A stretch of 64,000 nucleotides of DNA from Haloarcula hispanica ATCC 33960 (GTDB lineage: Archaea > Halobacteriota > Halobacteria > Halobacteriales > Haloarculaceae), in the NCBI RefSeq assembly GCF_000223905.1, contig NC_015948.1, forward strand, positions 2,728,001 to 2,792,000, in the 5' to 3' direction. Position 1 is the first letter of the stretch. Each line of letters opens with the position of its first letter. The notes beneath the pieces are model-generated. The model had not been told where the DNA came from. It made no database searches and worked only from the letters and a program-made list of their open reading frames with translations. This document shows, piece after piece, positions 1-9,715 of the stretch. Made by a program: the position numbers and the translations under genes.

Positions 1-1497
1 AATCGCTTTCCCGTGCTTCTCGATCTCCCCGAACCGCAGGGTCATCTGTGCCTCGCGAGCGTCATTCACGTCAACACCGTGGCGAGCTGCCCACGCGATG
101 AACGCGCTCATCGTATTCTCCAGCCCACGTTCGACCGCTTCCGCGGCCTTCGCCGCGGTATCGACAGCACGGCGAGTGGCTTCCCGCGCCTCGTCGACGG
201 CGGCGTGAACCATCTCCGCGACGTACTCCGACCGGAGCGACACGTCGGCATAGTCCGAGATCACCAAGTCTTCCATCTCTCGAAGCGCTCGACGGACACT
301 CTCGACATGACGGCCGTACTCGTCGGCGATATCCGCCGGAGCAACCTGCCCGCCGTCTGCTACCAACATCTCCAGGGCTTCCCACTGCACCGGCGAGAGC
401 CCGTCTGAGAGATGGCGCACGACGACACTCTCCTGCTTCTGCTCGACTCGCGTCAGATCCAAGCCCACCGGTTCGGGACCGGAATGGTCCACCTCCGGTT
501 CGAAGTACGAATCTTCGACAAATGGGCCGGAACCAGATGGTGCGATGTCGATACCCGCATCGGCCAGTACCGACAACACAGTCTGGTCTAACTCCCGTTC
601 CAGCTTCTCCAAGTCGCGCCACCGGACAGTTTCATCATCATCCAGCAGCGAAGCCTGCAGAGACGAACCGACTTTCGGGTGGGATAGCGGATGGTCGTCG
701 GGCACAGACAGCGCCTCACGGGCGTAGTAGTGCTTCACCTCCTTGGGGAGGTGGTGGTCGGGGAACGCCTCTCGAATCCGCTTCGGGCCGAGTGTGGCCG
801 TGTGGTAGTATCCTGGCAGGTTCCGCCCGCGCTCGTCGTCATCGTTCTGGACGATCTTCCGATAGCCGCGGCGGTCGGATTCTAACAGGTGGCCCATCGC
901 CGCAATCGGCCCATCGCGAGCGTGGACTGGTCCGCTAGCATCCCGATGAACACGGGCGTACTTTTCGGCGTCCTGAACGTTGCTGTAAGGGTGTGGCTCC
1001 TGGAAGTACCGACCGGTGACGCCAATCTCGACGGCTGCCCGCTGCAGTAGCTCGGGATATCGGTGAAACTCGATATTCGACCCCTTCACGCGGACGTTCA
1101 CACCTTCGCCGAAGCCGTCCGGCACGGGAATCTCGATACGGCTGCCGTCGTCCCGCTCGCCCTGCATCCCGGGCCAGCGTGGGGCAACATGGGCTACGAA
1201 ATCCTGCTGTCCGACCGAATCCTCCTCGGGATGACGGGCAACCTTTAGCCGGTACTCGCGCATGGTCTGCAGCTGCCAGTCCGTTCCCTGTGGTGTCCGC
1301 CCACCGGGGTGAACGATATTGCTGTCCTGGTAGGAGAGGCGAACGACCCACCGCTCGCCATCCTGCAGAAACTCGCCGCACTTTGACCCCTCACCAGCCT
1401 TGACCTCACTGTCCAGCGCGAAAAACGGCGCAAGGCCGTCGCTATTGAACAGGAGATTGGCGTGGAGTTCGTGAGGGGCCAGCCCTATCGTTCGCAT
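1..1497 (-). CDS. Large winged-helix protein, DUF7845-like, 3' end beyond window
   Basis: My own translation of the minus strand is open for 499 codons from an ATG at 1497 to the window edge, with no stop, so the gene is partial. The N-terminal two thirds (about residues 1-330) is a globular region with no motif I can name. Residues about 365-425 contain an HTH-like stretch (SPVQWEALEMLVADGG, then DIADEYGRHVESVRRALREM), followed by an Ala/Glu-rich likely coiled coil. It resembles the haloarchaeal DUF7845 family from memory, a family I associate with proviruses and integrated plasmids. It overlaps the preceding 52-aa gene by 13 bases, so it is the last visible gene of a four-gene operon starting near the tRNA-Ala. 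DNA binding is inferred from the HTH; the biochemical role is unknown. Confidence 0.75.
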   Translation of the reverse strand, partial: MRTIGLAPHELHANLLFNSDGLAPFFALDSEVKAGEGSKCGEFLQDGERWVVRLSYQDSNIVHPGGRTPQGTDWQLQTMREYRLKVARHPEEDSVGQQDFVAHVAPRWPGMQGERDDGSRIEIPVPDGFGEGVNVRVKGSNIEFHRYPELLQRAAVEIGVTGRYFQEPHPYSNVQDAEKYARVHRDASGPVHARDGPIAAMGHLLESDRRGYRKIVQNDDDERGRNLPGYYHTATLGPKRIREAFPDHHLPKEVKHYYAREALSVPDDHPLSHPKVGSSLQASLLDDDETVRWRDLEKLERELDQTVLSVLADAGIDIAPSGSGPFVEDSYFEPEVDHSGPEPVGLDLTRVEQKQESVVVRHLSDGLSPVQWEALEMLVADGGQVAPADIADEYGRHVESVRRALREMEDLVISDYADVSLRSEYVAEMVHAAVDEAREATRRAVDTAAKAAEAVERGLENTMSAFIAWAARHGVDVNDAREAQMTLRFGEIEKHGKAI

Positions 1498-1643
1498 CGC
1501 CCCCCGTCAGTCTTGACGGCGGCCACCGCCCGCTCGACCTCGGCTTGACTCTCCGCAAGCGGTTGGAGGTTCGTCCAGTCGAACTGAAGGGGTTCGCCTG
1601 CTTCTACGTCATATAATTCCGAAGCACGAACGAACCCAGTCAC
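1485..1643 (-). CDS. Small 52-aa protein in tRNA-proximal cassette
   Basis: This short gene begins with GTG at 1643. That GTG shares the four bases GTGA with the stop codon of the upstream HTH gene, and its stop lies 13 bases inside the next gene. The coupling on both sides is the main reason to accept it. The product begins TGFVRASELYDVEAGEPLQF and is acidic, without membrane segments, cysteine motifs or any domain I recognise. It is probably cotranslated with its neighbours. Function unknown. Confidence 0.55.
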   Translation of the reverse strand: MTGFVRASELYDVEAGEPLQFDWTNLQPLAESQAEVERAVAAVKTDGGRCER

Positions 1644-1837
1644 GCCGGAACCCCCTCCAGTTTCTCGCGAGCACGGCCAAGGAGATTGCCCACAGTACCG
1701 GGTGAACGGCCAGTCTTCCGGGCGTACTCCCGTGGCCCATACTGGCCCATGCCCACAGCCTCGTACACCTCTCGCTCGGCGTCAGTCAGTGGCGACAGGT
1801 CCGGTTCGTAATCGAACAGCGAAGACTGCGGAGTCAC
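1640..1837 (-). CDS. 65-aa sigma-70 region-4-like HTH protein
   Basis: A 65-residue protein. Residues about 18-60 read as a region-4-type helix-turn-helix: LTDAEREVYEAVG, then YGPREYARKTGRSPGTVGN, then LLGRAREKLEG. The pattern of a Glu/Arg-rich first helix, a turn before SPGTV and a basic last helix is that of sigma-70 region 4 or LuxR-type DNA-binding domains. Archaea do not use sigma factors, so it is probably a small regulator rather than an initiation factor (inference). It overlaps the zinc-ribbon gene by ATGA at 1834-1837 and the 52-aa gene by GTGA, so all are likely one transcript. Confidence 0.75.
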   Translation of the reverse strand: MTPQSSLFDYEPDLSPLTDAEREVYEAVGMGQYGPREYARKTGRSPGTVGNLLGRAREKLEGVPA

Positions 1838-2139
1838 AGACTCTCACCCCCGTCAGTCCGGGCTTCCACTCGACCGCCCTGATTCCGCTGTGGCTGGTCT
1901 TCTGGGTCGGGGTAGTCGAGTTCTTTCCCAGCCGCAGTGCCCCGCGAGATACGGGGCATACAGTCACAGGCTGGACAGCGGTGGGCAATATCATCGCCGT
2001 CGCCGAACGTCCGCCGAAAGTCACGCGAAACGTGTGCCCCGCAGTGCTGGCAGTTCGACTTCTCGATAGTTGCGTTCTCGACAAGTCGGTTACTCAAGAG
2101 AAACCACCCCCGCTCGGGAAGCGGCCAAATCCTTCGCAA
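1834..2139 (-). CDS. Zinc-ribbon protein, DUF7563-like
   Basis: First gene of the cassette next to the tRNA. The product has a four-Cys zinc ribbon: CQHC at residues 30-33 and CPAC at 55-58, with another Cys at 60. The spacing and the sequence around it (HVSRDFRRTFGDGDD) resemble the haloarchaeal DUF7563 family as I remember it. The longest form starts with TTG at 2139. A second TTG at 2097 has a GGGGGTGG stretch just upstream and may be the true start, giving about 87 aa. The stop overlaps the start of the HTH gene by four bases. It probably binds nucleic acid or a protein partner; no enzymatic motif is visible. Confidence 0.65.
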   Translation of the reverse strand: MRRIWPLPERGWFLLSNRLVENATIEKSNCQHCGAHVSRDFRRTFGDGDDIAHRCPACDCMPRISRGTAAGKELDYPDPEDQPQRNQGGRVEARTDGGESL

Positions 2140-2198
2140 AATCGCAAGACTGCACCCCAGATGATTCGTAACCGTTCGTGGTTCGATTTGATTTCGAG

Positions 2199-2204
2199 TT
2201 TATA
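2199..2204 (-). promoter_or_regulatory. TATA box for the tRNA-proximal cassette
   Basis: On the minus strand the sequence reads TATAAA in an otherwise AT-enriched gap between the tRNA-Ala 3' end and the zinc-ribbon gene. Transcription would be expected to start near 2175, about 35 bases before the longest start codon. It is the only good TATA element in the gap. Confidence 0.5.
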
Positions 2205-2288
2205 CGCAGAAGGGCCTGCGAGTAAGATTCAGATAGAAGGGCGTAGGCGACGCTTTTCGGGATAGTTCGCCAGAACGAAGTAACGCCA

Positions 2289-2360
2289 TGGACTCGCCGG
2301 GATTTGAACCCGGGGCCTCTTCCTTGCGAAGGAAGCGATCTGCCACTGATCTACGAGCCC
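2289..2360 (-). tRNA. tRNA-Ala (anticodon CGC)
   Basis: The reverse complement folds as a complete 72-base tRNA. It has a seven-base-pair acceptor stem (GGGCTCG with CGAGTCC), a G3-U70 wobble pair that is the alanine identity element, an anticodon arm CTTCC-TTCGCAA-GGAAG with anticodon CGC, and a T arm containing GGTTCAAATCC. The discriminator base is A and no CCA is encoded. No intron is present. It lies downstream of rpsJ on the same strand but has its own TATA box. Its 3' end borders an element-like cassette, as expected for a tRNA used as an integration site. Confidence 0.95.
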
Positions 2361-7528: not shown

Positions 7529-9715
7529 TTAGAAGTAGTCGATAGCCGGGTTCAGTTCCTGCTTCATGCCCTTGCGCTCGCGGATCTCGCTGATCTTGTC
7601 GGGCTGGAGGTTGTCGGCAAGGACCTGGAAGCCGGCGTTCTCGGTGTTCCAGGAGGCACGGCCCTCAGTGGCCGAGCGGATGTCTGAGGAGAAGCCGATC
7701 ATCTCGTCGACCGGGGCGACGCCTTCGACGACCATCAGGTCGCCTTCCTGGTACATATCGTCGACGCGGCCACGGCGGCCCTGAATCTCGCCGCTCGCAG
7801 CGCCCATGTGGTCGTTGGGCACGTCGATGCGGACCTGCTGAATCGGCTCCAGCAGCTTGATGCTGGCGTCGATGAGCGCGTTGTGGACAGCCTCGCGGAC
7901 GGCCGGGATGACCTGGGCCGGGCCGCGGTGGATGGCGTCCTCGTGGAGGCGGGCGTCGTGGAGACGGATGAGCGACCCCTGGACCGGCTCGGACGCGAGC
8001 GGGCCGTCGTCGAGGGCTTCTTCGAGGCCTTCGATGACGAGTTCCATCGTCTCGTTGAGGTGCTGGATACCCTTCGTCTCGTCGAGCAGGATGTTGGTCC
8101 CGTGGATGTGCTCGATGTTCTGGGAGTCGTCCTTGTCCATGCCGGCTTCCTGCAGCGCTTCACGGCGCTCCAGTTCTGGCATGTCCATCGACGCCTCGCC
8201 CATCTTGATGGTCTCGACGATGTCCTCGCCGAGCGGCTCGATGCTGATGTAGAAGCGGTTGTGGTTGTTCGGCGACCGACCTTCGACTTCGCGGCTCTCG
8301 TTCTGCGGGGCCTCGCGGTAGACAACAATCGGCTCACCGGTGTTGATCGGGATGCCCTGGTTGCGCTCGATACGCTGGCCGATGACTTCCAGGTGGAGTT
8401 CACCCTGCCCGGAGATGAGGTGCTCGCCGGTGTCTTCGTTAATTTCGACCTGGATGGTCGGGTCTTCCTTGGCGACCTGCTGGAGCGTCTCGATGAGCTT
8501 CGGCAGGTCGTCCATGTTCTGTGCCTCGACGGACTTCGTGATGACCGGCTCCGAGATGTGCTCGATGGACTCGAATGGCGTCATCTCCTCGCTGGAGACG
8601 GTGGAGCCAGCGATGGCGTCCTTGAGGCCCGTGACGGCGGCGATGTTCCCGGCGGGAACGTGCTCGACTTCCTCGCGCTCGCCACCCATGTAGATACCGA
8701 CGCTCTGGATGCGGTTCTTGCCCGCAGTTCCGGAGACGTACAGCTCCTGCCCCTTCTCCAGCGTGCCGGAGAAGACACGACCGGCGGCGATTTCGCCAGC
8801 GTGGGGGTCGACACCGATGTCGGTGACCATCAGGACGACTTCGCCGTCCTCGTTGACCATCGCCATGTCCTCGGCGAGCTGGGATTCGGCGTCGCCACGC
8901 CAGATACGCGGAACTCGCATCGGCTGGGCGTCGACAGGGTTCGGGAAGTGCTCACACACCATGTCGAGCACCACGTCGGACAGCGGCGTGCGCTCGTGGA
9001 GTTCTTGGCGGTTGTCGTTGCGCTCGAGCTCCATGATTTCGCCGAAGTCCATGCCGGTCCGCTGCATCGACGGCATCGAGACGCCCCACTTGTACAGCGC
9101 GGAGCCGAAGCCGACGGTTCCTTCCTCGACGGAAACCGTCCAGTCCTCGATGTCGTCCATCTCCTCGGTCATGCCGCGGATGAGGTCGTTGACGTCCTGA
9201 ATGACCGCGAGCAGGCGCTCCTGCATCTCCTCGGGTCCTTCCTGAAGCTCGGAGATGAGGCGGTCGACCTTGTTGATGAACAGCGTCGGCTTGACGCCCT
9301 CGCGGAGCGCCTGCCGGAGCACCGTCTCGGTCTGGGGCATCGCGCCCTCGACGGCGTCGACGACCACCAGCGCGCCGTCGACGGCACGCATCGCACGGGT
9401 CACGTCGCCACCGAAGTCGACGTGGCCAGGGGTGTCGATAAGGTTGATGAGGTGGTTCTGGTCCTCGTATTCGTGGGTCATCGAAACGTTAGCCGCGTCG
9501 ATGGTGATCCCACGTTCCTGTTCGTCTTCCTCAGTGTCCATCGCCAGCTGTTCGCCGGCGGTGTCGTCGGAAATCATGCCGGCACCGGCCAGCAGATTGT
9601 CTGTCAGTGTCGTCTTTCCGTGATCGACGTGAGCAGCGATGGCGATGTTCCGGATGTGCTCCGGATCGTCCATCAGTGTCTCACATTCTTGGACGATTTT
9701 CTTACGTCGGCCCAT
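7529..9715 (-). CDS. fusA: Translation elongation factor 2 (aEF2)
   Basis: A 728-aa translocase GTPase. The start at [15 protein letters not shown] (9715) is preferred over an upstream in-frame ATG ten codons away. Motifs are [15 protein letters not shown] and NKVD. In domain IV the diphthamide histidine is in HRGPAQ. Domains II-V follow in the normal order with normal length. In many archaea the gene sits next to rpsG and tuf. Here rpsG is about 9 kb upstream and tuf about 3.4 kb downstream, with unrelated genes between, so aEF2 must be transcribed from its own promoter in the 237-base gap above it. Confidence 0.98.

Follow-up and report, generated by a model that had tools for sequence, protein, structure and literature searches.

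Right end of the provirus Harhisp1 beside a tRNA-Ala gene of Haloarcula hispanica, with a replication operon probably rejoined by excision

Positions 1-2301 of the window, the 64,000-nucleotide stretch of DNA analysed here (positions 2728001-2792000 of contig NC_015948.1; the Haloarcula hispanica ATCC 33960 genome is 3.89 Mb in three contigs), are the right end of the provirus Harhisp1, a betapleolipovirus-like member of the Pleolipoviridae. Taken as a whole, the region is very probably explained by this right end together with a replication operon that excision would rejoin and that would end in the gene for a rolling-circle Rep protein. The element, its tRNA-Ala site and its induction are already published. 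Our analysis makes three small additions: a paired swap of acidic residues in the Rep active site, an attachment-site (att)-spanning frame that evolves without codon-position bias, and a same-strand tRNA upstream of most genomic Rep loci.

Table 1 Features of the right end of Harhisp1 and associated features to its left (negative window coordinates lie left of the window)
Feature	Window coordinates	Strand	Remarks
tRNA-Ala(CGC), integration target	2289..2360	-	ARAGORN; left intact by insertion
Attachment core, right end, CATGGACTCGCCGGG	2287..2301	.	Exact 15-bp direct repeat
Att-spanning open frame, C-terminal part	2090..2286	-	87 codons when joined; N-terminal part at far left end beside integrase gene
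CxxC zinc-ribbon protein, 87 aa, DUF7563	1834..2097	-	Pfam 4.8e-18; homologue of SNJ2 ORF25
Small HTH protein, 65 aa, sigma-70 region 4-like	1640..1837	-	Pfam 2.9e-6; homologue of HHPV3 protein 13
52-aa protein, phrog_9008	1485..1643	-	Short N-terminal match to SNJ2 ORF24
Rep-Arvir, predicted rolling-circle initiator, DUF7845 + winged helix, 538 aa	1..1497, on to -119	-	Pfam 2.5e-124
Predicted origin hairpin motif GTGTGGCTAAGGCCA	starts at -292		Outside window; 15/15 match to SNJ2 motif
Orc1/Cdc6-type gene	-13394 to -12342		AAA and Cdc6-lid domains; annotated rep in MW344767
Tyrosine integrase, 340 aa			Gene end 53 bp from left att; far left end of provirus
Attachment core, left copy, CATGGACTCGCCGGG	-17194 to -17180		19,481 bp left of the right copy

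An earlier sequence-only reading had taken the tRNA-Ala(CGC) gene to mark the edge of an integrated element whose integrase and far attachment site would lie outside the window. Both are found when the genome is extended leftwards by 80 kb, an extension that holds a single exact 15-bp repeat of the tRNA 3' end, the direct repeat which that reading had proposed to look for. Of the 15 bases of this core at the right end, 13 are the last of the tRNA gene and 2 lie beyond it. The 19,481 bp between the repeats also show the anticipated compositional break, with a GC content of 53.2% in the provirus versus 63.7% and 64.6% in its flanks.

Rotated to start at record position 9593, the sequence of Haloarcula virus Harhisp1 (MW344767) matches the element exactly, and the attP deposited with that record lies at 9593-9607. 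Published work places Harhisp1 at this tRNA-Ala (HISP_14435), reports 1403x coverage of the circular form in a virus stock that had been propagated on Haloarcula hispanica, and cites earlier PCR evidence for excision (PMC7911831). The integrated-element reading is thus supported, and the identity adds what its author could not have known, namely that a virus already described and shown to be inducible is integrated here. Genes for a VP1-like membrane protein, a spike and an NTPase lie between the att sites in pleolipovirus order (annotation of the identical record MW344767), and an HRPV3 ORF9-type protein is present (55% identity). Assignment to the Pleolipoviridae rests on these genes and on the identical record, the virus form of Harhisp1 being known here as the published circular DNA in the virus stock.

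The integrase is 40% identical to that of SNJ2, and in the alignment of the two it has Ala at Glu/Asp-I and Val at His/Trp-III. SNJ2-type integrases are defined by the catalytic R, K, HxxR and Y together with Gly or Ala at the former position and Ala or Val at the latter (PMC7547991), which places the Harhisp1 enzyme among them. Recombination by such an integrase over the 15-bp core would place the viral circle at the tRNA-Ala(CGC) 3' end without disrupting the tRNA. The integrase gene overlaps at its start with a 40-aa Cys-rich frame (-16107 to -15985) that MW344767 leaves unannotated.

The tRNA-Ala(CGC) gene is also present in the other Haloarcula genomes compared, where it is an integration hotspot. 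Close relatives of Harhisp1 occupy it in six of them (G001, G003, G007, G013, G023 and G030), with Rep proteins 96-98% identical and repeats of 14 or 15 bp. These relatives are 17.9-25.5 kb long (18.9 or 20.9 kb in G003, depending on which of its two repeats is taken), and each provirus at the site has both a repeat and an integrase. Among the sites that were classed, two are empty at this tRNA: in G031 the joined flanks align without a break over the junction (87%), and in G011 the tRNA lies directly beside engB, about 170 bp away. Four more (G008, G012, G021 and G027) carry other integrases there. The G003 provirus (L058, L070) is followed about 2 kb further on by a third att copy, which suggests a small second element in tandem. 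In five related proviruses the spike protein (gene at -6562 to -4769) is only 49-61% identical, whereas identities of 95-99% were obtained for those of the Rep, NTPase, VP1 and integrase proteins that were compared; such divergence would be expected of a host-recognition part that evolves rapidly or is exchanged.

The occupancy pattern bears on whether the four genes beside the tRNA are simply core chromosome, for which their presence at tRNA-Ala in seven Haloarcula genomes, Haloarcula hispanica included, might speak. The same cassette in all relatives, with neither repeat nor integrase, would have indicated as much. Instead, the site is empty in two of the genomes and taken by other integrase-bearing elements in four, att repeats flank the element, which carries an integrase, and its sequence is identical to that of a deposited virus. 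We therefore rejected the core-chromosome explanation, to which we give virtually no credence, on the strength of the empty sites and the induced circle.

Within the provirus, the tightly overlapping four-gene cassette described from sequence beside the tRNA is confirmed as four overlapping minus-strand genes, all of whose products match virus families (PHROGs 7550, 6362, 9008 and 3288; E values 1e-31 to 1e-217). It begins about 190 bases past the tRNA, as measured from the deposited TTG start of the CxxC protein at 2097, rather than the 150 first given. The two families named in the sequence-only reading, DUF7563 and DUF7845, were both confirmed by Pfam. The CxxC protein is 57% identical to SNJ2 gp25 over 65 aa, and its gene has a pN/pS of about 0.04 among the seven Haloarcula proviruses; the HTH protein is 86% identical to that of HHPV3. 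The large protein recognised as winged-helix indeed combines DUF7845 with a winged helix, but is longer than the window displays, its final 39 codons lying to the left.

The DUF7845 protein of the Natrinema virus SNJ2 was identified in 2026 as a rolling-circle initiator, termed Rep-Arvir (PMC13107129). The Harhisp1 protein has the same layout (PF25227), with DUF7845 covering residues 4-335 and a winged helix following. The latter gives weak Pfam matches, and an AlphaFold model covering the 499 residues that the window encodes (pLDDT 86) has helices at 348-407 with MarR-type structure matches. A structure search with this model returned the neighbours that have been published for SNJ2 Rep, viral TBP-fold and Inoviridae Rep_trans proteins (PMC13107129), whereas among solved structures the catalytic domain had no convincing match and the winged-helix matches were marginal. 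A search of viral contigs with one query sequence gave HGPV1 as the sole match. Harhisp1 Rep keeps the equivalents of SNJ2 E25, D207, Y283 and G410, with the catalytic Tyr at residue 257 by alignment; SNJ2 E303, essential there, is replaced by Gly, and Glu occurs instead at SNJ2 position 209. A hairpin downstream of SNJ2 rep is the likely origin of that virus (PMC13107129), and its motif recurs 173 nt downstream of Harhisp1 rep, where it folds as a hairpin (z -4.0; stem GTGTGGC/GCCACAT, loop TAAG). By homology with SNJ2, we infer that Harhisp1 Rep works as a rolling-circle initiator.

Replication of the excised circle could alternatively depend mainly on the Orc1/Cdc6-type protein, leaving the DUF7845 protein as a regulator only. 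The domains of the Orc1-type protein and the annotation of its gene as rep would fit such a role, and the protein might also act as a second initiator. SNJ2, however, also has an Orc1-type gene (34% identical), yet its minimal replicon is the integrase-to-orf19 operon and point mutations in its Rep abolish replication (PMC13107129). Among the related proviruses, moreover, Orc identity falls as low as 68%, against 96-98% for Rep. We regard an Orc-driven circle as distinctly unlikely and favour initiation by Rep.

In SNJ2 the replication operon is assembled only on provirus excision, and its transcription start lies inside the integrase gene (PMC13107129). When the ends of Harhisp1 are joined, the integrase gene, the att-spanning frame and the CxxC, HTH, 52-aa and Rep genes all run in one direction. 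The four-gene cassette would thus be the downstream part of a replication operon ending in Rep, with the hairpin origin behind it. In the integrated state it would be separated from the integrase gene and any promoter there; excision would reunite all six, so that replication would start only from the excised circle. Excision therefore probably reconnects the cassette to the upstream half of the replication machinery. A tRNA lies on the same strand at most 3 kb upstream of rep in 49 of 60 genomic Rep loci, which suggests that this split geometry is general. The Harhisp1 cassette showed no recognisable counterparts of ORF20-23, each of which SNJ2 requires. Across the seven proviruses, synonymous change showed no clear local drop within the integrase gene that would point to a promoter there.

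Excision would not be the switch if the cassette were also expressed in the integrated state, whether by transcription running on from the tRNA or from a right-end promoter. The cassette does lie on the strand of the tRNA and a short distance downstream of it, and a TATAAA at 2204-2199 is present in all seven proviruses. That stretch, however, shows no greater conservation than the sequence around it, and the SNJ2 operon starts within the integrase gene. Expression before excision thus seems to us improbable, though less so than replication driven by the Orc1-type protein, and we retain the rejoined operon as the preferred reading.

The att-spanning frame, previously described for Harhisp1 (PMC7911831), corresponds to SNJ2 ORF26, which is expressed and needed (PMC13107129). 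None of the seven Haloarcula proviruses has a stop codon within the 87 codons of the joined frame; when the same changes are placed at random, it remains open in 4.5% of trials. Its variable columns fall almost evenly over the three codon positions (13, 20 and 19; pN/pS 0.75), whereas those of the CxxC gene (2, 4 and 37) and rep (9, 6 and 77) in the same seven proviruses do not. Given the absence of codon-position bias, the frame either encodes a rapidly evolving protein or is kept chiefly for its DNA sequence.

Compared with known viruses, the provirus is identical to Harhisp1 (MW344767; PMC7911831) over 19,481 bp by circular permutation, with the same attP and the same tRNA-Ala, and differs only in being integrated. 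With the betapleolipovirus SNJ2 (OP012469; PMC13107129) it shares, besides the integrase and the CxxC protein (57%), Rep-Arvir (34%), the Orc1-type protein, the origin hairpin motif (15/15), the att-spanning frame and an operon split by integration. SNJ2 nevertheless targets tRNA-Met rather than tRNA-Ala, and its operon is longer, including ORF20-23, for which no Harhisp1 counterparts were recognised. The structural genes of Harhisp1 are similar to those of HHPV3 (KX344510) and HHPV4 (KY264020) of Haloarcula hispanica, according to record notes, but no integrase is annotated in the HHPV3 record. The HTH and 52-aa region is 80% identical to HHPV3 in DNA, whereas the Rep proteins of HHPV3 and HHPV4 are only about 31% identical to that of Harhisp1, which is nearer to those of HGPV1 and HRPV3 (55-56%). 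This contrast suggests that rep was probably exchanged within the operon behind a front that was kept.

The exchange of acidic residues in Rep extends well beyond Harhisp1. Among 67 aligned Rep proteins, the position of SNJ2 E303 is Gly in 30, Harhisp1 among them, and SNJ2 position 209 is Glu in exactly these 30 and Ala in the remaining 37; mixed cases number 0 of 67. The proteins therefore form two classes, the SNJ2 form (E303/A209) in 37 and the Gly/Glu form (G277/E178 in Harhisp1) in 30. The distant virus LSV-48N also has the Gly/Glu form. Loss of E303 abolishes SNJ2 replication (PMC13107129). The best tree has four joint changes of the pair, and counting supported branches alone leaves at least two, too few independent events for a sign test to reach significance. 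In the Rep model, used for strand membership and not for distances, the conserved Asp, D176, and E178 lie two residues apart on the strand 173-183 and G277 lies on the strand 275-280, an arrangement that makes a moved metal ligand plausible. The joint change on the tree and the lack of mixed cases suggest two interchangeable ways of holding the same catalytic metal, and on balance we lean slightly towards the view that an essential acidic active-site residue has moved.

Alongside SNJ2, in which the switch was shown, Harhisp1 would be another example of a replication operon assembled by excision. As a provirus of the laboratory haloarchaeon Haloarcula hispanica with a shorter operon and a Rep of the other active-site class, it could show which operon genes and which residues are generally needed.
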